Below are positions 3,280 to 60,375 of a stretch of 64,000 nucleotides of DNA, piece by piece (positions within the stretch are counted from its first letter, which is position 1; each line of letters begins with the position of its first letter). The DNA lies in the NCBI RefSeq assembly GCF_017868775.1, contig NZ_CP053381.1:682001-746000 (forward strand), in the 5' to 3' direction. The notes below the pieces were generated by a model that saw nothing but the letters and a program-made list of their open reading frames with translations, was not told where the DNA came from and ran no database searches. The position numbers were made by a program, and so were the translations under genes. This DNA comes from Billgrantia sulfidoxydans (GTDB lineage: Bacteria; Pseudomonadota; Gammaproteobacteria; Pseudomonadales; Halomonadaceae).

Positions 3280-3579
3280 AACTTTCCTTTCGCGCCGTAG
3301 CGCCTTGCTACATTCTTGGGGTTACCCCCGTTGGCTAGCAGGTTATTGGCTTACCCGCTGAACCCACCGTGTCATGCTCGAGCGGCTTGGGTCAAAGCCT
3401 TTCGCGTTTATTTTCGGTATCCGCCGCCGGTTCCCTCCCAAGCTGGACGAGGCGGCGTGCGCTGAGCTGTACTGCGATAACCCCGGGCAGGGCGGCCCGC
3501 GGGGAAGGAGGGGCCGGCGAGCCTGAACGGAGCTGTCGGAGGGAGGCGACAGCGGCATGGAACGAACAGGATGAGAAGT
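3280..3579. other. Divergent intergenic region between cspA-like and mscS-like genes
   Basis: About 300 bp with no credible ORF. It contains a short GGGG-TTA-CCCC hairpin at about 3319-3329, which would lie in the leader of the cspA-like mRNA. No clear -35/-10 pair is visible in either direction. Confidence 0.5.
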
Positions 3580-5298
3580 ATGAAAGCGAAAGGTTGTTGG
3601 CGTCTGTGGATCGTGCTGTTACTGGCGTTGCTCGTTTCCGGCCTGGGCATGGCGCAGGAGGAAGAGAGCGAGGAGAGGGAGCAGTGGTTCTCTGTCGATT
3701 CACTCAACGCCGGGCTGGGCGAGGTGCCCGAGGAGGCCAAGCGGCAGACGCCTCGCGAGGCGATCCGCAGTTTCCTGAAGCTTGCCGAGGAGAAGAACTT
3801 CACCGCCGCCGCCCACATGCTCAACCTCTCCGAGCTCGACGAGGCGGAGCAGGAGCGTCGCGGCCCCGAGCTGGCCAGGCAACTGGCCGAGGTGCTGCGG
3901 CGTGGCGAGTGGCTCAACGTATCCAACCTCTCCGGACGCCAGGATGCCGCCATCGAGGACCCCTCGGGCCAGCACCCCCGCACCGGCGAGCCGCGACGGG
4001 ACATCGAACTGGCCTCGCTCACGCTCGATGGCGAGGCCTACGACATTCGCCTGGGGCGGTACCGGCTGGACGACGAGGATCCGGTCTGGCTGGTGACACC
4101 GGACAGCGTCTCGACCATTCCCACGCTCTACGAGGCTTATGGCCCCTCGCTGCTGGAGGAGTACATCCCGGAGCGCTTCAAGACATCGCTCGGTTGGCTC
4201 GAGCTCTGGGAGTGGATCGCCATTCCGCTGTTTGTGTTGGCCATCGGCCTGGTGGGCTGGGGCGTGCACGGCCTGGTCGGGTGGCTGGCGCACTGGTTCC
4301 CCTCCGGCTGGCCGAGCATCTTCGCCAGCCGGATCGGCAGCCCCATGGCGCTGCTGGTCATGGCGTTCACGGCCCAGGCCCTGCTCGACTACGTGGTCTC
4401 GTTCACCGCCGTGGCGACCACCTTCATCCGCGTGCTGCTGACGATCCTGATCGCCTGGGGGGCAGGCACGATTGCGCTGCGCCTGGTGGATACCATCCTG
4501 CTCAAGGTGACGCGGCGCATCGTCGGCGAGATCGACGACACCAAGCCCAAGGACGAGCGCAAGCTGCTGACGACACTGTATGCGCTGCGCCGGGTCATCA
4601 TCCTGGTCACGGTGACCGCGGTTTCGGTCTACGTGCTGAGCCAGATCCAGCTCTTCGAGACCCTGGGCATGTCGCTGCTGGCCTCGGCCAGCGTGCTGGC
4701 GGTGCTGGTGGGTATCGCCGGGCAGGCGGTGCTGGGCAACATCCTCTCCTCGTTCCAGCTGTCGCTGGCCAAGCCCATCCGTATCGGCGACCTGGTGATG
4801 TTCGAAGGGCAGTGGTGCTATGTGGAAGGCATCTTCTACACCTTCATCCGGTTGAGGAGCTGGGATGAACGGCGCCTGATCGTGCCGGTGACCTACTTCG
4901 TCTCGAAACCCTTCGAGAACCTCTCGGTGAAGAGCGCCAAGATGTATCGGACGCTGGAGCTGGTCGTCCACCTGAGCGCCGACATCCAGCTCATTCGGGA
5001 GAAATTCATGGAATTCGCCAAGGAGGAGGACAACGTCGTCGAGCACCACAAGCTGTGCTGCTACGTGACGGGGCAGACCGAACGGGCCCAGACCGTCAGC
5101 TGCTACCTCATGGCCTCCGACCCCTTCGCCGGCTGGGTCGCGGAGATGCAGATCCGCGAGAAGCTGATGAATTTCATCCGCGACGAGCACCCCGAGTGGT
5201 GGCCGCGCGAGGTGGTGGTGCTGAGCCAGGCGGATATCGCCAAGGGGGAACGCAAGGACGCCCCGCCGCCCTCCGCATCAGGCAACGCCGGGAGGTGA
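3580..5298 (+). CDS. MscS-family mechanosensitive ion channel
   Basis: About 572 residues, longer than classic MscS. It opens with a signal-like hydrophobic segment (residues 6-25), then about 180 acidic residues likely in the periplasm, then several membrane helices between about 205 and 400. The conserved MscS core follows: a pore-lining helix rich in Ala and Gly (ASASVLAVLVGIAGQAVLGN), then the beta domain with KPIRIGDLV and RSWDERRLIVP. Such channels open on membrane tension and release solutes on hypo-osmotic shock, fitting a halophile. I prefer ATG 3580 to ATG 3571 because AGGA lies 8 nt upstream. The N-terminal domain is unlike E. coli MscS and of unknown role. Confidence 0.88.
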   Translation: MKAKGCWRLWIVLLLALLVSGLGMAQEEESEEREQWFSVDSLNAGLGEVPEEAKRQTPREAIRSFLKLAEEKNFTAAAHMLNLSELDEAEQERRGPELARQLAEVLRRGEWLNVSNLSGRQDAAIEDPSGQHPRTGEPRRDIELASLTLDGEAYDIRLGRYRLDDEDPVWLVTPDSVSTIPTLYEAYGPSLLEEYIPERFKTSLGWLELWEWIAIPLFVLAIGLVGWGVHGLVGWLAHWFPSGWPSIFASRIGSPMALLVMAFTAQALLDYVVSFTAVATTFIRVLLTILIAWGAGTIALRLVDTILLKVTRRIVGEIDDTKPKDERKLLTTLYALRRVIILVTVTAVSVYVLSQIQLFETLGMSLLASASVLAVLVGIAGQAVLGNILSSFQLSLAKPIRIGDLVMFEGQWCYVEGIFYTFIRLRSWDERRLIVPVTYFVSKPFENLSVKSAKMYRTLELVVHLSADIQLIREKFMEFAKEEDNVVEHHKLCCYVTGQTERAQTVSCYLMASDPFAGWVAEMQIREKLMNFIRDEHPEWWPREVVVLSQADIAKGERKDAPPPSASGNAGR

Positions 5299-5379
5299 TG
5301 GGTCAGGCGGATGGCTCCGGGTTCGTGCCCGGAGGTATCGTACGGTTCACGTCGACACACTTTGGTGGCAGTCAAGATA

Positions 5380-5400
5380 GGGCCCGGCATTGCCGGGCCC
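5380..5400. terminator. GC-rich hairpin between convergent genes
   Basis: Perfect stem GGGCCCGGC / GCCGGGCCC with a 3-nt loop, between the ends of the mscS-like gene and the minus-strand acidic-protein gene. No strong T tract follows on either strand, so it may be a bidirectional terminator or just a 3'-end stabiliser. Confidence 0.55.
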
Positions 5401-5423
5401 ATCGGAACCGCATTCATTTCCTA

Positions 5424-5804
5424 TCAGGTCTCATCCTCTTCTGTGTCTAGTGTGTCGGTATCGCTCGGGTCGGGTTCCTCGCCGCCCTGCGTGCCTTCAC
5501 CTCCGTCTACGCCTGGGGCGCCCGGGTCGCTGCTCACTTCGTCGGAGCGGTCACCGGCGCCTTCCGGCTCCATCTCGCCGTCTTTTTCCTTTTCCCACTC
5601 GGGCTTTTTCTCGGCATCGGTTCCAGCGGACCCGGAAGCGCCCATCGTGCCGGAGGCATCATCCGTCATGGTGGAGGTCCCGCTCTGCTCGCCAGCGGCA
5701 TCCGTTTCCTTGTCAGTACCGGCCGACCAGGCGAAGGGGCTGGCAACCAGGCCTATCGTCACTCCCAACACACCGATTCGCTTGAGGATATCGCGAGGTA
5801 ACAT
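5424..5804 (-). CDS. Secreted, highly acidic low-complexity protein
   Basis: About 126 residues. The start at 5804 is supported by AAGGAG 7 nt upstream and gives a textbook signal peptide (basic MLPRDILKR, hydrophobic core, AWSA cleavage near residue 28). The mature part is rich in Asp, Glu, Gly, Ser and Thr, with no Cys and almost no hydrophobic core, so it is probably disordered in the periplasm or outside the cell. I recognise no family. Strong acidity is common in exported proteins of halophiles. It ends toward the mscS-like gene. Function unknown. Confidence 0.7.
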   Translation of the reverse strand: MLPRDILKRIGVLGVTIGLVASPFAWSAGTDKETDAAGEQSGTSTMTDDASGTMGASGSAGTDAEKKPEWEKEKDGEMEPEGAGDRSDEVSSDPGAPGVDGGEGTQGGEEPDPSDTDTLDTEEDET

Positions 5805-5958
5805 GGCATGACTCCTTGGACATCGTGTCCTCATGCAAGCGGCCCCTGTCGTGGCGGCCGCTCTGCTCCTTGTGATGCCGTGGGCTTTGCATGGCAGCGC
5901 CACGGCCCCTTAAGCATAGTTCGATAGCGAGAGTTTTGGTGGGGTGGCTCCTGCAATT

Positions 5959-7002
5959 TCAGCGTCCCTGCGCACCGAGCTGCTGGCGGCGAAACTCGCC
6001 CTGGCGCTCGATCATCCAGCCGGGATATTCGGCCGGCAGTGCACTGACGCGGTCGAGCTCGGCGAGTTCGTCTGCGCTGAGCGTGACCTGCGCGGCGGCG
6101 ATGTTGTCGTCGAGCTGGTCGATGCGCTTGGCGCCGAGGATCACGCTGGTGACCGCCGGCTGGTGCAGCAGCCAGGCCAGCGCAATCTGGGCGACGCTGA
6201 CGCCCTTGGCCTCGGCGATGCCGCGCATGACGTCGACGCAGCCATGGGCGCGCGCCTCGTCCACCGGCGGGAAATCGAGGTTGACGCGGCGCCCCTCGCC
6301 ACTGGCCCGGTCGCCGCGGCCGTACTTGCCGCTGAGCAGGCCGCCGGCGAGCGGGCTCCACACCATCAGGCCGAGGCCCTCGCTCTCCAGCATCGGCACG
6401 ATCTCGCGCTCCAGGTCGCGTCCGGCCAGGGTGTAGTAGGCCTGCAGCGACTGGAAGCGGTTCAGCCCCTTGCGTTCGGCGATGCCGAGCGCCTTGACGA
6501 TCTGCCAGGCGGCCCAGTTGGAGACGCCGACATAACGCACGTGGCCGTGCTGGACCAGGGTATCCAGCGCGCACAGGGTCTCCTCGATGGGCGTGGCGGG
6601 GTCGAAGCCGTGCACCTGGTAGAGGTCGATGTGGTCGAGCTGCAGGCGCTTCAGGCTCGCCTTCACGCCCTCCATGATGTGGTAGCGCGACAGCCCCCTG
6701 GCATTGATGCCGGCGCCGGTCTCGCCGAATACCTTGGTGGCGACGACCACCTCGTCGCGGGGTATGCCGAGGTTCTTCAGCGCCTGGCCGGTGATGCGTT
6801 CCGAGAGCCCCTCGGAGTAGACGTCGGCGGTATCGATGAAGTTAATGCCGGCCTCCAGGGCGCGGGCGACCAGCCGCTCGGCGTCGCTCTGCTGGAGATT
6901 GCCGATCTTGCTCCAGAGTTCGCCCTCGCCGCCGAAGGTCATGGTGCCCAGGCAGAACTGGGAAACGAACAGGCCGGTGTTGCCGAGTTTGCGATATTGC
7001 AT
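5959..7002 (-). CDS. Aldo/keto reductase
   Basis: 347 residues, a normal length for this TIM-barrel family. The catalytic tetrad is visible as Asp57, Tyr62, Lys90 and His131, with the N-terminal MQYRKLGNTG and the NFIDTADVYSEG segments typical of AKR members close to YajO/Tas or plant potassium-channel beta-like enzymes. It should reduce aldehydes or ketones with NADPH in the cytoplasm. It stands alone: the acidic-protein gene downstream begins about 150 bp away, and 347 bp without a gene lie upstream. The substrate cannot be deduced. Confidence 0.92.
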   Translation of the reverse strand: MQYRKLGNTGLFVSQFCLGTMTFGGEGELWSKIGNLQQSDAERLVARALEAGINFIDTADVYSEGLSERITGQALKNLGIPRDEVVVATKVFGETGAGINARGLSRYHIMEGVKASLKRLQLDHIDLYQVHGFDPATPIEETLCALDTLVQHGHVRYVGVSNWAAWQIVKALGIAERKGLNRFQSLQAYYTLAGRDLEREIVPMLESEGLGLMVWSPLAGGLLSGKYGRGDRASGEGRRVNLDFPPVDEARAHGCVDVMRGIAEAKGVSVAQIALAWLLHQPAVTSVILGAKRIDQLDDNIAAAQVTLSADELAELDRVSALPAEYPGWMIERQGEFRRQQLGAQGR

Positions 7003-7349
7003 GGGGTACTCCTTTCCTCTTGCCGGGGTGTAGTGTGGCAGGTTTGCAGCGCCCTGCCGGGTCGATTCATCGTCCTGCCGAAGGGCTGCGGCACCGCTGC
7101 CGCTTGCGGTGGGCGGCGGTGTAGGATGAGACGATACGTCGGTCGTGAGCGGCCGTTCAGGAGCGCGCTATTCCGGTATTCGCCCTTCCCCCCAAGGAAA
7201 CGCACCGTGCTCAGCAACCCCAGGAGAAGATGGAGGCCCTGATGGGGCGCTCCACGCTGGCGCCCTCCGCCTGACCAGGTCTCCGATGGAGCCGGCGGAG
7301 GAAGCGCGTCGTGTGGCGTGACGGTGCGCCGCCGTCACGCCGTATCGCC
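7003..7349. other. Intergenic region without a recognisable gene
   Basis: No convincing ORF or gene remnant. It holds the upstream region of the aldo/keto reductase and, at 7315-7341, a hairpin GGCGTGACGG / CCGTCACGCC with a 7-nt loop just past the stop of the beta-propeller gene; the hairpin has no T tract. Confidence 0.5.
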
Positions 7350-7979
7350 TTACCGCGGGCGACGTACGACCCTTAGCTTGCCGCTCGCGCCACCGCCGCA
7401 GAAGAAGCGCTCGGCGCCATCCGACTCGAGCCCGGAGACGCCCATTCCCTGGGGCATCTCGAGCTGCTGCAGCACCTCGCCCGAATCAGGGTCGATTCGC
7501 CTCAGGTCGCTGCCGTCCTCCTCCCAGGTGCCATGCCAGAGTTCGCCGTCGACCCAGGTGACGCCGGTGACGAAGCGGTTGGATTCGATGGTGCGCAGAA
7601 TTGCCCCGCTGTCGGGATCGATCTGGTGGATCTTGCGGTCCCGATACTGGCCTAGCCAGAGCGAACCCTCGGCCCAGGCCAGCCCCGAGTTGCCCCCCGG
7701 CGGGGCGGGAATGGTGGAGAGGATGTGGCCGCTGGCAGGCTCGATCTTGAGGATGCGATCCTCGGCGACCTGGAACAGATGCCGGCCGTCGAAGGCCGTG
7801 CCGGCATCGGCGGCGGTCTCGATCGAGCGCTGCGGCTCGCCGGTATCGGGGTCGATGGCATTGAGTCTGTCGCCGGTAGCCAGCCAGACGTGCCGGCCGT
7901 CATAGGTGACGCCGTGGACGCTGTCCATGCCGGGGAAGGGGCCGAATTCCTCGAGGAGTTCTGCTGCTGAACGGTTCAT
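7350..7979 (-). CDS. Beta-propeller protein (YncE/Vgb-like repeats)
   Basis: 209 residues made of about five repeats in which a Trp-Leu strand is followed by an IDPDTGE or IDPDSGE turn (near residues 43, 82, 124, 167), the pattern of YncE-, Vgb- and glutaminyl-cyclase-like propellers. No signal peptide is seen, so it is probably cytoplasmic. The start has GAGGT 6 nt upstream. It lies 33 bp after the TPR/HTH regulator on the same strand and is likely co-transcribed with it. There are too few blades for a complete seven-bladed propeller, so it may dimerise or be a short form. Catalytic residues are not recognisable; function unknown. Confidence 0.7.
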   Translation of the reverse strand: MNRSAAELLEEFGPFPGMDSVHGVTYDGRHVWLATGDRLNAIDPDTGEPQRSIETAADAGTAFDGRHLFQVAEDRILKIEPASGHILSTIPAPPGGNSGLAWAEGSLWLGQYRDRKIHQIDPDSGAILRTIESNRFVTGVTWVDGELWHGTWEEDGSDLRRIDPDSGEVLQQLEMPQGMGVSGLESDGAERFFCGGGASGKLRVVRRPR

Positions 7980-8012
7980 GTCGTTGACCTCGTTGGTAGG
8001 GACCTCTTCAGC

Positions 8013-9233
8013 CTATGCGCCGGGCAGTGGGCCTGGGAGTAACAAGGTTGTCGTGAAACCCGGCACCGAAGGGGCGATCCAGCGCCGTGCCCTGCCGCGT
8101 CCGAAGGACTGCACCTTGCCCGCATCGGCGAGCGCTTCGAGCGCTCGCTGCGTGTTGCGTTGGCTGGCGCCGAGGGCCATGGCCAGGGCCGAGCTCGACC
8201 ATGGCTCGCCGTCGCTGAGCAGGGCCAGCACCTCGCCATGCTTGCCTTCGATGGGGCGCGCCAGCACTGCGACCTCCGACGCGGCTCCTGGCTCCAGCAG
8301 GTAGCCCCGGGGTGTCGCGCGCACTCCGGCCAGGGGGGCGAGGGCCGCGCGCAGCCGGCCGAGTTCGACCCGCAGCCGGATCCGGTGCGAGTCGTCGGCG
8401 AAGCGGGTGCGAAACGCCCGGGCGATGAGCGCATCCCGCGATACGTCTGCGGGCCAGGCTTCGCCCAGCAAGCGGGCCAGGGCGAACAGCACCGGGCGCG
8501 TGGCGAGCGAGACCACGGCATCGCCATCGCGAACGGCATGACGGCAGGCATCGATGACGAGCGCCTTGGATTGCAGTAGCGCCTCGACCTCATGCAGCTG
8601 CAGCAGGTGCTCCTGGCCATGGCTCACCAGGCGTGCGGCGGGGGCATTCAGGGCAAGGCAGGCGCTCTCCACTTCCGCCAGCAGCGCGGGGACGCCGGCG
8701 AGGCGTGCGCTCCGTTCGGCTCGCTCCAGCGCGGCGCGTGCTGTCTCGGTGTGCAGCCGGCGCAGGGCGATGCCCGCCACGGTCAGCGCGTGAACGGCGC
8801 CCAGGGCCGGAGGAAGAGCGGAGGGCTCGAGCTGGGCCAGGGCATGCTCCGCCTGGCCCAGGCGGCCGAGCAGGAGCAGGCGGCGGGCCACGAGGGACCG
8901 CGCGTGGGCGGCGTTCGTCAGGTCGCCGTGCGCCTCGAGCGTGGCCCGCGCCGAGTCGAGCCGCTTCGTGGGCCAGCCCAGGTCGCGCGACGCCAGGGCA
9001 ATCTCGGCCTCGGCGACGATGCACCGCGCACGAGCCGTCTCTTCCCTGGCACCGAAGGCGCGTGAGGCACGCTGCAACAGCAGCCTGGCTCGCGTGAAAT
9101 CGCCAAGCTGGGCCATCGCGATCCCCCGCAGCGCCAGCGCCGGCGCATCGTCACGCAGGGCGACCCGGTTCAAGGCCCCGAGAGGATCGCCCGCCGAGAG
9201 TGCACGGCCCGCGGCCGTGATCAGCGCATCCAT
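8013..9233 (-). CDS. TPR-like repeat protein with two winged-helix regions, probable transcriptional regulator
   Basis: 406 residues. Residues 1-200 are Ala- and Leu-rich helical hairpins of TPR type, including DFTRARLLLQRASRAF and LGRLGQAEHALAQLEP. The middle (about 240-320) resembles an OmpR-like winged-helix domain (RVELGRLRAAL then GYLLEP). The C-terminus (about 340-385) looks like a second helix-turn-helix ending in a basic GRGRARRW wing. The layout suggests a cytoplasmic regulator whose TPR part binds a protein or ligand. The 33-bp gap to the beta-propeller gene suggests one operon. I do not recognise a named family. Confidence 0.68.
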   Translation of the reverse strand: MDALITAAGRALSAGDPLGALNRVALRDDAPALALRGIAMAQLGDFTRARLLLQRASRAFGAREETARARCIVAEAEIALASRDLGWPTKRLDSARATLEAHGDLTNAAHARSLVARRLLLLGRLGQAEHALAQLEPSALPPALGAVHALTVAGIALRRLHTETARAALERAERSARLAGVPALLAEVESACLALNAPAARLVSHGQEHLLQLHEVEALLQSKALVIDACRHAVRDGDAVVSLATRPVLFALARLLGEAWPADVSRDALIARAFRTRFADDSHRIRLRVELGRLRAALAPLAGVRATPRGYLLEPGAASEVAVLARPIEGKHGEVLALLSDGEPWSSSALAMALGASQRNTQRALEALADAGKVQSFGRGRARRWIAPSVPGFTTTLLLPGPLPGA

Positions 9234-55942: not shown

Positions 55943-56722
55943 CTATATCCCCGCCCACCACTCGTAGCCGCGGTCCTCCCAATAGCCGCCCCGGCCGCGG
56001 CCGAGGTGGGCGAAACTCTCCACCAGTTCGATGCGCATCACGTACTTGGCCATCTTGTAGCCGAGCTGGCGCTCGGCTCGCAGTCTTATTGGGGCGCCGT
56101 TGGCAACGGGCAGATTGCCACCGTTCAGGCCGTAGGCCATCAGCGTCTGAGGGTGATAGGCCTCGATCATGTCCAGGCTTTCGTAGTACGCATCCCCGCC
56201 GCGGTAGCGGTCGGCACAGTGGAAGACCACGAAGCGCGCCTCGTCACGCACCCCGACCTGGGCCAGCAGGTCACTGAGGACCACGCCGGTCCATTGGCCG
56301 ATGCAGCTCCAGCCCTCGACGCAGTCGTGGCGGGTGATCTGGGTACGCGAGGGCATGCTCCTCAGCTCATCGAGCGAAAAGCGTTGCGGACGCTCGACCA
56401 GCCCGTCGACCGTCAGGCGCCAGTCGCGGAAGCCGTCGGCCGCCAGGCGTCGGTAGGTTGCGTCCTGCGGGTCGGTCGTGCCGTTGGCGCGAAAGGTCGG
56501 CGCGATGTCCTCGGGCGAGTATTCACGGGCGAGGGATTCGCGCGAGGCCAGCAGGCGCTGGGCTTTCTGGGTCAGGGCACTGCTGGCATCGAACAGCCGG
56601 CCCATGGTGTCGCTGCGCGTCAGCCGGTCGCAGCCCGTCAGCAGGACGGCGGATGCGGCCAGCAGCGAGCGGGTCAGAAAGCGTCGACGGCGAGGATCGG
56701 TGGGTCTATTTTTGCTGTTCAT
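55943..56722 (-). CDS. Tat-exported molybdopterin oxidoreductase (sulfite oxidase / MsrP-like) with lipobox
   Basis: 259 residues. The N-terminus has a twin-arginine motif (RRRRFLTRSL) and then LLTGC (Cys31), so it looks like a Tat-exported lipoprotein. The SUOX-fold molybdenum-cofactor domain has the metal-binding Cys134 in ITRHDCVEGWSC, and later PIRLRAERQLGYKMAKYV. It lacks the full MsrP pattern, so methionine-sulfoxide reduction is only one possibility. The start overlaps the cytochrome b gene by 17 bp; the two likely form a membrane-bound redox pair. Confidence 0.88.
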   Translation of the reverse strand: MNSKNRPTDPRRRRFLTRSLLAASAVLLTGCDRLTRSDTMGRLFDASSALTQKAQRLLASRESLAREYSPEDIAPTFRANGTTDPQDATYRRLAADGFRDWRLTVDGLVERPQRFSLDELRSMPSRTQITRHDCVEGWSCIGQWTGVVLSDLLAQVGVRDEARFVVFHCADRYRGGDAYYESLDMIEAYHPQTLMAYGLNGGNLPVANGAPIRLRAERQLGYKMAKYVMRIELVESFAHLGRGRGGYWEDRGYEWWAGI

Positions 56723-57575
56723 CGGAAAGCACCTCCTCGCTCGCGGGCAGGCGATAGCGCCCGGTGATCATCGAGCGCAAGTTGTTGGCGACGCCGGAGA
56801 CCAGCACCAGCACGATGTGGATCAGGAAAAAAATCACCAGGGCCAGGGCGCACAGGAAGTGGATCGTTCGAGCGCTCTGGCGGCCGCCGAAGACATCCAG
56901 CAGCCAGGGCCAGGCGGCATCCATGGTCGGTGACATGGTCAGCCCGGTCAGCACGACCAATGGCATGACGACGAACAGCACCAGCAGGTAGGCGAGCTTC
57001 TGCAGCAAGTTGTAATGGCGCGCTTCCTCGCCGCGCGGAAAGCGCAGCCGCAGGTGGTCGTAGAAGGACTGGCCGAGGGTTCGCCATTCCTGCCGACGCG
57101 GCAGCAAACGTCGCCTTAGCTGACCGCTGAGGACCAGATACGCCAGGTAGGCGAGCAGCATGGGAACGAAGACCCAGGCGGCGAGAAAATGCCACCCACG
57201 ACCCGCAGACAGCCAGCGCGGGCCGGGCAGGGTGGCCCAGGCCGGGAAAGCGCGTCGTTCTCGGGCCTCATCCGGGCCGGAAACGCCCAGCACCCCGGTC
57301 GTATCGAAACGGTAGGGGCCGACCTGGGTGATGCCGCGCCACTCGCCGTCGTTACCCGTCGCGGCGTGAATCGACAGTGCCGGGTTGGCGAAACTGGAAT
57401 CCTTGCCCCAATACAGGGCGGGATGGGCGTTGAAGATCTGCAGGCCACTCATCAACAACACCAACAGACAGGCGGCATTGACCCAATGCCACAGCCGTGT
57501 GAAGGCGCCATGTCGCTGGATGACCGTGGCAGCCTGGCCCCTGTTCGTACCGGTGAATGAGTCGAAGACACGCAT
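56706..57575 (-). CDS. Di-haem cytochrome b561-type membrane subunit
   Basis: 289 residues with about four main membrane helices. Haem-ligand histidines sit in FTRLWHWVNAACLL, RGWHFLAAWVF and ARTIHFLCALALVIFF plus LIHIVLVLVSG, as in the cytochrome b561/thiosulfate reductase cytochrome b family. A hydrophilic loop between helices 1 and 2 is unusually long. It would carry electrons between quinone and the exported molybdoenzyme encoded next. The two genes overlap by 17 bp. Confidence 0.88.
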   Translation of the reverse strand: MRVFDSFTGTNRGQAATVIQRHGAFTRLWHWVNAACLLVLLMSGLQIFNAHPALYWGKDSSFANPALSIHAATGNDGEWRGITQVGPYRFDTTGVLGVSGPDEARERRAFPAWATLPGPRWLSAGRGWHFLAAWVFVPMLLAYLAYLVLSGQLRRRLLPRRQEWRTLGQSFYDHLRLRFPRGEEARHYNLLQKLAYLLVLFVVMPLVVLTGLTMSPTMDAAWPWLLDVFGGRQSARTIHFLCALALVIFFLIHIVLVLVSGVANNLRSMITGRYRLPASEEVLSDEQQK

Positions 57576-57665
57576 CGCGGCACCCTCCTGCGAGCGAAGA
57601 TCGAGAAAAATCGGCCGGTGGAGGGAAGGAATGGACGAGCACCGGCCGATACCGCGAGTCGAGCT

Positions 57666-57935
57666 TCACATGGCGTCGTCGTCCGACATCATGTCGTCGT
57701 CTTCCTCCATCATTGCGCCTTTCTCTTCCATGGCGTCTTCTTCCATCATTGCGCCTTTCTCTTCCATGGCATCGCTGTCCATGGCATCGCTGCCCATGTC
57801 ATCGCCGGTCATGGCCTCATGCTCCATGCTGTCGCTTTCCATGGGCTCGTCGGCCAGGGCGACGGTCGGCAGCAGCAGCGCCGTGGCGAGCAGGGTGGCA
57901 AACAGCGCGGTCTTGGGACGGTTCAACGGGTTCAT
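57666..57935 (-). CDS. Exported MXKDX-type pentapeptide-repeat protein
   Basis: 89 residues from ATG 57935, preceded by GAGG. A signal peptide (NRPKTALFATLLATALLLP, cleavage near VALA) leads to a mature chain almost wholly made of Met, Asp, Glu, Ser and Ala, with SDAM, EDAM and EKGAMM repeats, akin to MXKDX-type repeat proteins. Two exact 12-residue units are encoded by a 36-bp repeat. It is divergent from a two-component system, sharing a 200-bp region with a symmetrical operator, so it is likely its target. Possibly metal or proton buffering; function unknown. Confidence 0.82.
   Translation of the reverse strand: MNPLNRPKTALFATLLATALLLPTVALADEPMESDSMEHEAMTGDDMGSDAMDSDAMEEKGAMMEEDAMEEKGAMMEEDDDMMSDDDAM
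57707..57778 (-). repeat. 36-bp tandem repeat in the MXKDX gene
   Basis: Two near-identical copies starting at 57707 and 57743, encoding the 12-residue unit MEEKGAMMEEDA. It is a likely site of copy-number change. Confidence 0.8.
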
Positions 57936-58031
57936 CGGCTTGCACCTCTTGTTCGGATTGGTTGTTCGGATTGGCCGTCGGTGATATGCCGGAGCGGCAA
58001 GGGTCACACTAGTCAGGCACTGCCATGGGTT

Positions 58032-58083
58032 CATCACGGAACCATCACGCCGTGGTATCTTTTTCCGTGATGATTTCGTGATG
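58032..58083. promoter_or_regulatory. Four-half-site operator of the two-component system
   Basis: Two CATCACG at 58032 and 58043 and two CGTGATG at 58066 and 58077, each pair spaced 11 bp start to start. CATCACG is the reverse complement of CGTGATG, so the region is a symmetric 18-bp inverted repeat (16 of 18 matching) with a 16-bp spacer. An 11-bp direct-repeat period is typical of OmpR-type response-regulator boxes. Confidence 0.75.
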
Positions 58084-58138
58084 TAGCAGGGCCAGTGCCG
58101 TTCTAGAGTGGGCGCAGGCAACGGGCGGGAGTCTGGCG

Positions 58139-58903
58139 ATGAGCTATCGAATCCTCTGTGTCGAGGACAATGCCGAGATCGGCAGGCTGCTCACCGAATC
58201 GCTGGCGGCGGCGGGGTATGCCTGTGACTGGGTTCGCGACGGCGAGGCGGCGCTGGCCCTGCTTGGTGCCGAGGCGGCGGGAGTACGCTATGACCTGGTG
58301 ACCCTGGACCTGATGCTGCCCGGCGTGGATGGCCTGGAAGTGTGCCGCCAGCTACGTCGTCGCGACAGCCTGACGCCGGTGCTGATGGTGACCGCCAAGG
58401 CGGCGATCCGCGACGTGGTGGTGGGGCTGGAGATCGGTGCCGACGATTACGTCACCAAGCCCTTCGCCATGCCGATCCTGATGGCCCGGATCCAGGCCCT
58501 GCTGCGCCGCGGCCAGCGCCAGGCGCCCAGCGACGACGGCCTCGCCAGCACGCCGCCGCTGGTCTGCGGCCCGCTGGTCATCGATGCCGACCGGCACCGG
58601 GTCCAGCTCGATGGCAAGCCGCTCCAGCTCACCGGCAAGGAGTTCGCGCTGCTTTCGCTCTTCGCGCGCCATCCCGGGCGCAGCTTCAGCCGCGGCGAGC
58701 TGCTCGACCATGTCTGGGGCGAGGAATTCGATGGCTACGACCACACCGTGAACACCCATATCAATCGTCTGCGCAACAAGATCGAGGTCGACCCGGCCAG
58801 GCCGCGCTTCATCCAGACCGTCTGGGGGGTGGGCTATCGCTTCGCCGAGACACCGGAGGGCCAGGGCTCGCCGTCGTCCGCGCCGGGCGCCGAGCGCCCA
58901 TGA
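58139..58903 (+). CDS. OmpR-family response regulator
   Basis: 254 residues. The receiver domain has acidic residues ED at 9-10, phospho-acceptor Asp57 (VTLDLMLPG) and Lys107 (YVTKPF). A C-terminal winged helix (LTGKEFALLSLFARHPGRSFSR, then HTVNTHINRLRNKIE) binds direct repeats as a dimer. The stop overlaps the kinase gene start by 4 bp (ATGA). An operator of 11-bp-spaced half-sites lies directly upstream, so autoregulation and control of the divergent MXKDX gene are likely. Confidence 0.95.
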   Translation: MSYRILCVEDNAEIGRLLTESLAAAGYACDWVRDGEAALALLGAEAAGVRYDLVTLDLMLPGVDGLEVCRQLRRRDSLTPVLMVTAKAAIRDVVVGLEIGADDYVTKPFAMPILMARIQALLRRGQRQAPSDDGLASTPPLVCGPLVIDADRHRVQLDGKPLQLTGKEFALLSLFARHPGRSFSRGELLDHVWGEEFDGYDHTVNTHINRLRNKIEVDPARPRFIQTVWGVGYRFAETPEGQGSPSSAPGAERP

Positions 58904-60375
58904 GGGGGCTGCTGCGCCGCTGCGGGCGGCTGGGTCGTAGCCTCTATGCGCGCATCGCGCTGGTCTACCTGAGCAGCCTGTTGCTGCTGTCGGTGGCCAC
59001 CGCCTGGATCGCCATCAGCCAGTTCAACCAGCTCACCCGGGAACTGCAGCAGCGGATGGAGATCGATCTCGCCAAGAATCTCGCCCAGGTCATGCAGCCG
59101 GCCTTGTGGCAAGGTGCCGGGAGCGACGCCGCGCGCGACATGGCCCGCCATATTCTGTCGATCAACCCCTCCTTGTCGCTGTATGTGCTCGACGAGCAGG
59201 GCAGGGTGATCGCCGACTACGCCGAGCCGGCCTGCGGGCTGGGGCGGCGGATCGAGATTGGGGCGCTGGAAACCCTGCTGAGTGAAGAGCCGATGCTGCC
59301 CGTGCTGGCGACGGCGCCCTGCGGTAGCGAACCGGGCATCTTCTCCGTCGCGCCCATCCAGCATGGTGAAGCGCGCCGCCAGGGCTTTCTTTACGTCGAT
59401 CTCGCCAATGCCGGCCAGGCATCGATGTTCTCCATGCTGCGCACCAGCTCCATCACTCGCACCCTGGTCGCGGCCGGGCTGATGGCGCTCCTGGTGTCCG
59501 GGGTCTTCGGCCTGGTGTGGTTCGCGCTGCTGACCCGACGCTTCTCGCGCCTGACCACGGCGGTGCAGCGATTCGCCAACGGCGACTACGGGCAGCGCAT
59601 CGCCACGCCCCGCGACGACGAGCTGGGCCGCCTGGCCAGGGCCTTCAACGACATGGCCGGGACCATCGAGGCACAGCTCCAGGCCATGCGCGAGACCGAT
59701 CGCCAGCGCCGCGAGCTGGTTGCCAACCTCTCGCACGACTTCCGCACGCCGCTGACTTCGCTGCGCGGCTATACCGAACAGCTGCTGGCCGCGGAGACCG
59801 CCGACGAGGGCCGCCGGCGCATGCTGACGGCAATTCTCGACAATGCCGACCGCTTGACCCGTCTCGCGCATCAGCTCTCGACCCTGGCGCGGCTGGACGC
59901 CGACGACCGGCCACTGCAGTGCGAGCCGTTCACGCTGGCCGAGCTGGCCCACGACATCGTCGGCAAGTTCCAGCATCAGGCCCGCACGGCCGGCATCTCG
60001 CTGACGGTAGCCTGCGAGCCCTCGCTGCCTCGGGTCGAGGCCGATCTGGGGCTGACCGACCGGCTGTTGTCCAATCTGATCGACAATGCCCTGCGCGCCA
60101 CCCCCGCCGGGGGCTGGGTGCGTCTCGACGCCGAAGCGTTGCCGGAGGGGGTGCGGTTGGCGGTGATCGACAACGGCGTCGGTATCCCCGAGGAGGAGTT
60201 GCCGCTGGTGACCCAGCGCTTCTACCGCACCCGGGCCAGCCTCGACAGGGGCGATGGCTCGGGGCTGGGGCTGTCGATCGTGCGCGAGATCTGCGAACGG
60301 CAAGGGGTGGCGTGGAAGATCGCCAGCGCGCCGGGGAAGGGCACCGAGGTGAGCGTCATCCTGCCCCGCGCGTGA
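58900..60375 (+). CDS. Sensor histidine kinase
   Basis: 491 residues. TM1 (about 19-40) and TM2 (about 185-210) enclose a periplasmic sensor of about 140 residues with two cysteines (near EPACGLG and TAPCGSEPG) that could form a disulfide. A HAMP domain (NGDYGQRIATPRDDELGRL) precedes the HisKA box NLSHDFRTPL with His279, and the ATPase boxes LIDNALRATP, DNGVGIPEEE and GSGLGLSIV. It is translationally coupled to its response regulator. The signal is unknown, but an exported, acidic Met-rich protein gene beside it suggests an envelope or metal cue. Confidence 0.95.
   Translation: MRGLLRRCGRLGRSLYARIALVYLSSLLLLSVATAWIAISQFNQLTRELQQRMEIDLAKNLAQVMQPALWQGAGSDAARDMARHILSINPSLSLYVLDEQGRVIADYAEPACGLGRRIEIGALETLLSEEPMLPVLATAPCGSEPGIFSVAPIQHGEARRQGFLYVDLANAGQASMFSMLRTSSITRTLVAAGLMALLVSGVFGLVWFALLTRRFSRLTTAVQRFANGDYGQRIATPRDDELGRLARAFNDMAGTIEAQLQAMRETDRQRRELVANLSHDFRTPLTSLRGYTEQLLAAETADEGRRRMLTAILDNADRLTRLAHQLSTLARLDADDRPLQCEPFTLAELAHDIVGKFQHQARTAGISLTVACEPSLPRVEADLGLTDRLLSNLIDNALRATPAGGWVRLDAEALPEGVRLAVIDNGVGIPEEELPLVTQRFYRTRASLDRGDGSGLGLSIVREICERQGVAWKIASAPGKGTEVSVILPRA

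Follow-up and report, generated by a model that had tools for sequence, protein, structure and literature searches.

Paired direct-repeat sites predicted to link a two-component system with periplasmic methionine repair in Billgrantia sulfidoxydans and its relatives

We suggest that one sensor system in Billgrantia sulfidoxydans probably switches on itself together with genes for defence against methionine oxidation, and for its repair, outside the inner membrane. The locus lies in a 64,000-nucleotide stretch of the genome, here called the window. In the account that we favour, to which we give a probability of about three in four, the neighbouring OmpR/PhoB-type regulator would bind both arms of a repeat at 58032-58083 and activate both divergent promoters in response to a periplasmic oxidant. 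This account draws on the anatomy of the repeats, their conservation, the promoter spacing, the co-occurrence of the genes and a pattern of cysteines, all read from sequence. The locus is real and conserved; the coupling is known from elsewhere, and the layout of the predicted switch and the candidate sensor are its own.

In the mechanism that we propose, the membrane kinase would detect a periplasmic oxidant, most likely reactive chlorine or peroxide, and the phosphorylated regulator would bind each direct repeat near the -35 position. The two divergent promoters, with their predicted -10 elements 20-21 bp beyond the outer half-sites, would then be activated. The rightward promoter would raise the level of the sensor system itself, presumably a positive feedback, and the leftward promoter would make MrpX as a sacrificial methionine sink. 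Partial read-through of a terminator would add smaller amounts of a cytochrome b561 and an MsrP-like reductase and, by analogy, this reductase may regenerate the oxidised methionines with respiratory electrons. The features are collected in Table 1.

Table 1. Predicted features of the locus, with positions and strands in the window.
Feature	Position	Strand	Remarks
Arm 1, CGTGATG-GTTC-CGTGATG read leftward	58032..58049	-	Predicted regulator site, mrpX promoter; exact repeat
Arm 2, CGTGATG-ATTT-CGTGATG	58066..58083	+	Predicted regulator site, regulator's own promoter; exact repeat
Predicted -10 element TAGTGT, mrpX promoter	58006..58011	-	20 bp past arm 1
Predicted -10 element TAGAGT, regulator promoter	58104..58109	+	20 bp past arm 2
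mrpX-like gene, 89-aa Met/Asp/Glu-rich protein	57666..57935	-	Signal-like N-terminus; no Pfam family
Terminator-like hairpin, 11-bp stem, 19-nt loop, T-rich tail	57610..57650	-	Between mrpX and cyb
Cytochrome b561 gene (cyb), Ni_hydr_CYTB	56706..57575	-	Presumed electron donor; Pfam
MsrP-like molybdopterin oxidoreductase gene	55943..56722	-	Tat-like motif, lipobox-like LTGC-D, CVEGW; overlaps cyb
OmpR-family response regulator gene	58139..58903	+	Pfam Response_reg and Trans_reg_C
Sensor histidine kinase gene, HAMP/HisKA/HATPase_c	58900..60375	+	Overlaps regulator gene by ATGA

The half-sites CATCACG (starting at 58032 and 58043) and CGTGATG (58066 and 58077) are all exact in the window sequence. 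Each pair repeats with a period of 11 bp and 16 bp separate the arms (58050-58065), so that the four half-sites, their spacing, the mirror arrangement of the arms and the spacer are exactly as first described. A motif-free test, which looks for a 7-mer at a period of 8-14 together with its reverse complement at an equal period within at most 80 bp, gave a single occurrence in the window, at 58032-58083, and none in 60 first-order Markov controls. Throughout the 4.49-Mb genome the exact pattern CATCACGN4CATCACG has two matches only, and both are these arms. There are 46 further genome matches with one or two mismatches, and all lie within open frames (6/6 in ORFs kept by our script, 40/40 in open frames of at least 450 nt, a criterion that is weak in GC-rich DNA). 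Up to two mismatches, therefore, the genome scan gave no operator copy outside coding frames and no wider regulon, and the lack of a second non-coding copy suggests a dedicated local target.

We compared 37 loci, that is, the window and 36 relatives: 33 from genomes of the family, and three (L190, a Halomonas sp. PA16-9 plasmid record; L194, from genome G264; L195, from genome G547) added from plasmid and class-wide searches. The regulator is found at E<=1e-85 in 34 of 275 family genomes, its own genome included. The 37 loci are mutually related, and counts over them are not counts of independent events. In an anchored scan for CGTGATG (at most one mismatch), 20 or 21 bp and then TAnnnT, which is biased toward finding that spacing, the outer half-site, spacing and -10 element are present in 37/37 loci on the mrpX side (in L195 this is the msrA side) and in 35/37 on the regulator side, where no arm was found in L152 and L153. 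By chance, as estimated from mononucleotide shuffles, half-site, spacing and TAnnnT come together in 1.2% per strand. A free search for the arms, which is less biased, places TAnnnT at 20 bp in 34/37 loci and at 21 bp in 3/37 on the mrpX side, and at 20 bp in 29/37 and 21 bp in 3/37 on the regulator side; another offset (10 to 29) was found in one case.

Sequence identity follows the same elements. On the mrpX side (34 loci), the outer half-site has a mean pairwise identity of 0.96, the inner half-site 0.85 and the -10 element 0.79, against 0.42 in spacer positions 4-20 and 0.31 in the upstream sequence. The corresponding values on the regulator side (32 loci) are 0.99, 0.68, 0.77, 0.39 and 0.30. 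The outer half-site on that side is exact in 32/37 loci. The recognition-helix segment HTVNTHINRLR is identical in 37/37 regulators. We suggest that the arrangement is best read as two separate predicted direct-repeat sites of the PhoB/OmpR type, one for each divergent promoter. The original prediction had called it a symmetric four-half-site operator, and as a single unit this does not hold, since in the 35 loci in which both arms were found they stand anywhere from 4 to 22 bp apart, and all four half-sites are exact in only 4/37 loci. With so variable a distance there is no conserved mirror symmetry, and we discard the idea of one cooperative operator made up of four sites; the arms mirror each other, we conclude, because the promoters are divergent. 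What the comparison of relatives does support is a predicted OmpR-family site serving both directions. An alignment across relatives had been proposed as a check, and it bears out the retention of half-sites and of both neighbours, though not of four exact half-sites. Autoregulation is the less certain part, since on the regulator side just 7/37 loci have an exact inner half-site and no arm was found in the two loci named above.

The operator largely goes with the two-component system. The divergent order of msrP-cyb and regulator-kinase is found in 33/33 family relatives, and a Met-rich gene is present in 33/33 when scanned without an ORF-overlap filter (32/33 by a stricter script). Over the 36 relatives with the system, the Met-rich scan is positive in 35, L195 being the exception. 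An MsrP-like gene occurs in 56 of the 275 genomes, 34 of which have the regulator at E<=1e-85. From the remaining 22 genomes, 20 and G264 (L194) were examined, and G202, with a partial match, was left out. Three of these genomes, G245, G264 (L194) and G280, have a diverged system with the operator and mrpX kept. Of the msrP-bearing loci examined, 18 do not have the system, and 17 of these have neither the operator nor mrpX. The arm scan finds a match in 33/33 loci that carry the system and in 0/17 msrP-cyb loci that lack it, and the unfiltered scan gave no Met-rich gene in L219-L235, with one present in L218, L236 and L237. A stray arm with one mismatch was seen in L229, more than 2 kb from its cyb gene.

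The exception among the 18 loci is G074 (L218). Here, at 3431-4738, mrpX and an MsrP-like gene are kept, and 20 bp ahead of TAGCTT stands an arm in which each half-site has a single mismatch. No cyb, regulator or kinase gene is detectable within 8.7 kb, and the genome has no regulator at E<=1e-85. We read this locus as possibly what is left once the system has been lost, a decaying module; the alternative is that something else uses the predicted site. It is a natural example of a site that has weakened where the system is no longer present.

The genes next to the repeats are as originally claimed, with a two-component system on one side and a Met-rich gene on the other. On the left, the Met-rich gene had been identified correctly, and the cytochrome b561 and MsrP-like genes downstream on the same strand had been missed. 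The mrpX product scores 31.4 bits against TIGR02953 (MXKDX), under the cut-off of 41. Its N-terminus is signal-like and its tail Met-rich, as judged by eye from the translation. The estimated mature MrpX of the relatives contains 17-26% Met and no Cys in 32/32 measured, and its repeats differ greatly in both sequence and length. The best NCBIfam family for the MsrP-like protein is MsrP, at 107.8 bits and below the cut-off of 207, and the nearest solved structure, 1xdq, is listed as a bacterial sulfite oxidase. We take 1xdq to be E. coli YedY/MsrP. The Tat-like motif and CVEGW are present in 33/33 relatives, and a GCDR-type lipobox in 27/33 under a strict pattern. The partner of the enzyme is a cytochrome b561 (Ni_hydr_CYTB) and not the MsrQ heme subunit (Ferric_reduct). 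In its MrpX/MsrP make-up, the left operon resembles known periplasmic defences against methionine oxidation, with the enzyme activity predicted by analogy.

The hairpin between mrpX and cyb would yield much sink protein and little enzyme. A strict detector finds a terminator at this place in 17/32 relatives, and a looser one in 21/33 loci against 1.67 expected from shuffles. The hairpin at 57610-57650 is unlisted by the terminator scan, which admits loops of 3-8 only. The sequence of its stem changes among relatives.

The receiver and winged-helix domains of the regulator and the HisKA/HATPase domains of its partner kinase score above the Pfam gathering cut-offs. The regulator reaches no curated cut-off among the 25 of 93 NCBIfam families listed. 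In the periplasmic part of the kinase, Cys112 and Cys141 are both present in 37/37 of the group and in 0/34 distant paralogues. In these paralogues, position 141 is Arg in 32 and Ile in L163 (L215 is unaligned), and position 112 is variable, most often Lys. An AlphaFold2 model of the sensor (mean pLDDT 76.2, pTM 0.58) weakly resembles PAS-like sensors. The kinase may sense its oxidant through this cysteine pair, a proposal to which we give slightly less than an even chance. The pair is missing in the kinases of L156, L157 and L214, which are linked to methionine repair, and so the cysteines are not generally required for this role.

Related systems control other outputs. In L195, from another family of the same class, the kinase and regulator share 56% and 57% identity with those of the window, and the operator architecture and Cys-pair kinase stand beside an MsrA (178.7 bits) whose N-terminus is signal-like. 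No Met-rich ORF is flagged there within 7.7 kb, and one elsewhere in the genome is possible. L157, of the same order, has a fused MsrA-MsrB and an arm, read by eye, of CGTGACAATTTCGTGATA followed by 20 bp and CATACT. In L156 (G001, same genus), a Met-rich MrpX-like protein, regulator, kinase, MsrP and MsrQ are encoded on one strand at 4149-8421; this locus is of the genuine MsrPQ type, and its regulator is another member of the family. From the outputs of these three loci, methionine-sulfoxide repair emerges as the common theme.

The layout of the arms has a well-known parallel. A pho box consists of two 7-mers with a period of 11 bp and a 4-bp AT-rich linker, replacing a good -35 element, and the arms of the window share this layout of 7-mer, period and linker. 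The two differ in that pho promoters have, as generally described, about 10 bp to the -10 element against 20-21 bp here, and the half-site is another one. As to the genes, the work of Melnyk in 2015 on Azospira suillum is said to place mrpX-yedY1-yedZ1, acting against hypochlorite, under SigF/NrsF. As far as the available account goes, that system is like ours in its Met-rich periplasmic peptide and MsrP-type reductase, and unlike ours in its control, reportedly by a sigma/anti-sigma pair and not by a two-component system.

Contrary to the statement that no described system couples such genes, two do so according to the available portions of their descriptions, OrhK/OrhR (PMC8550376) and Brucella BcrS/AbcS (PMC8315932). 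OrhK/OrhR (C3564/C3565) of uropathogenic E. coli is described in the accessible text as directly activating the adjacent, H2O2-induced c3566-c3568, a putative methionine sulfoxide reductase pair and an MrpX-like peptide, with TCACA-N15-TGTGA, an inverted repeat, as the proposed OrhR site (PMC8550376). Since OrhK/OrhR controls an equivalent gene set, the coupling of a two-component system to a Met-rich product is not new. Both loci have a two-component system beside a methionine-repair set and an MrpX-like peptide, but on the evidence of that text the window differs in having an 11-bp direct repeat for each promoter instead of the inverted repeat, and mrpX first in its group instead of last. 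This likeness is drawn from the published description and from L214. L214, a Rahnella plasmid locus with content similar to the OrhKR set, has a regulator and kinase related to those of the window (47% and 33%), carries cytochrome b561, Oxidored_molyb and MXKDX genes, and has a site TCACG-N15-TGTGA (read by eye). Its kinase has no Cys pair, whereas that of the window does.

In Brucella, the available sections describe bcrXQP as an HOCl-induced set of an MXKDX peptide and an MsrQP-like pair, with a recognition sequence listed for bcrX and another, on the opposite strand, for bcrS; unlike in the window, control is by an ECF sigma factor (PMC8315932). HprSR-hiuH-msrPQ of E. coli provides two-component control of MsrP by reactive chlorine, as given in the accessible parts of PMC9302797 and PMC10151825. 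By these same parts, the HprSR box CATTACAAAATTGTAATG is an inverted repeat whereas the window has direct repeats, HprS senses via two periplasmic methionines whereas the window kinase has the Cys pair, MsrQ stands where the window has cytochrome b561, and no MrpX is named in them. In the open-licence literature, which excludes most subscription papers, we found no description of the direct-repeat operator with fixed promoter spacing, the Cys-pair sensor or the Halomonadaceae setting. The locus would provide a precise promoter rule (half-site, 20-21 bp, -10 element) for a two-component system, one that probably governs methionine repair in the periplasm of bacteria other than enterobacteria. 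It appears that a similar output gene set has been wired, by lineage, to sigma factors and to inverted-repeat or direct-repeat regulators. The two cysteines are candidates for the sensing of oxidants, by a chemistry that would be unlike that of the methionine-based HprS.

Other explanations have been considered. The Met/Asp/Glu-rich exported protein could bind copper or silver, with the system sensing metal and the MsrP-like enzyme guarding the methionines that bind it. Binding of Cu(I) is known among Met-rich proteins, and one Paraburkholderia cyb-msrP pair lies near cueR. CusSR also induces msrP under copper stress in E. coli, according to the accessible part of PMC9302797. We nevertheless find metal sensing rather improbable. 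The cut-offs of the heavy-metal subfamilies are missed by both the regulator (TIGR01387, 175.1 vs 279.2 bits) and the kinase (TIGR01386, 145.8 vs 292.55 bits), 0/7 window proteins scanned match a metal-efflux family, and msrA replaces mrpX at the same kind of operator in relatives. Retention of the operator and Cys-pair kinase beside msrA in L195, where no Met-rich ORF is flagged within the 7.7 kb, also makes it very unlikely that the sensor reads the oxidation state of MrpX, being held off by reduced MrpX and released once it is oxidised. Such a sensor would be in keeping with the tight gene linkage in 33 relatives, but the repeats of MrpX vary strongly, unlike the conserved positions of the sensor.

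The direction of control could be the reverse of what we propose, with the regulator repressing both promoters and oxidation lifting the repression. The sites lie directly against the core promoter, a position from which repression is feasible too. We think this hardly probable, since the repeats end 20-21 bp before the -10 element and neither predicted divergent promoter is listed in a sigma-70 promoter scan. Such a layout, of direct repeats with no promoter called, fits activator-dependent OmpR/PhoB promoters. The related OrhR is an activator as well, in the part of PMC8550376 that is available. As the arms are inverted copies of one another, they might also form a DNA or RNA hairpin or a bidirectional terminator without being a protein site. 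The terminator scan cannot speak on this, because it allows only loops of 3-8. However, the gap of 4-22 bp, the separate decay of the inner half-sites and the constant distance at which the sites precede both predicted promoters make this barely credible.

The regulator family is wider than the loci compared so far. A search of the genome contigs with the regulator kept 80 loci at 37-50% identity; tblastn with the window genes gave no mrpX or cyb match in them, and an MsrP-like match in six. The sole Met-rich ORF in the 80 loci, in L104, lacks an export-like look, and all 80 were left out of the comparisons. Three distant paralogues (L197, L203 and L158) adjoin exported Spondin_N-domain proteins. 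In L202 (G411), at about 6400-7600, a paralogous two-component system is divergent from a DUF2282-like gene (21.7 bits, cut-off 22.4) and a gene of the MbnB/TglH/ChrH family, a bufferin-like arrangement, and TCAC/GTGA repeats in both orientations are seen in the intergenic region. Because paralogues stand beside spondin-like or DUF2282/MbnB-type genes, methionine repair is not the theme of the whole regulator family. A more general reading, which we consider doubtful, would be a periplasmic disulfide-switch kinase in which Cys112 and Cys141 make a PAS-like sensor into a thiol sensor of oxidants, in a family of regulators whose GTGA-type half-site code is kept and whose outputs are swapped (MrpX/MsrP, MsrA, MsrA-B and possibly bufferin-like or spondin-like exported proteins). 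In L210 (G301), at 3958-4236, the gene of a Met/Lys-rich, exported-looking protein without an NCBIfam match lies directly before a paralogous regulator-kinase pair on the same strand.
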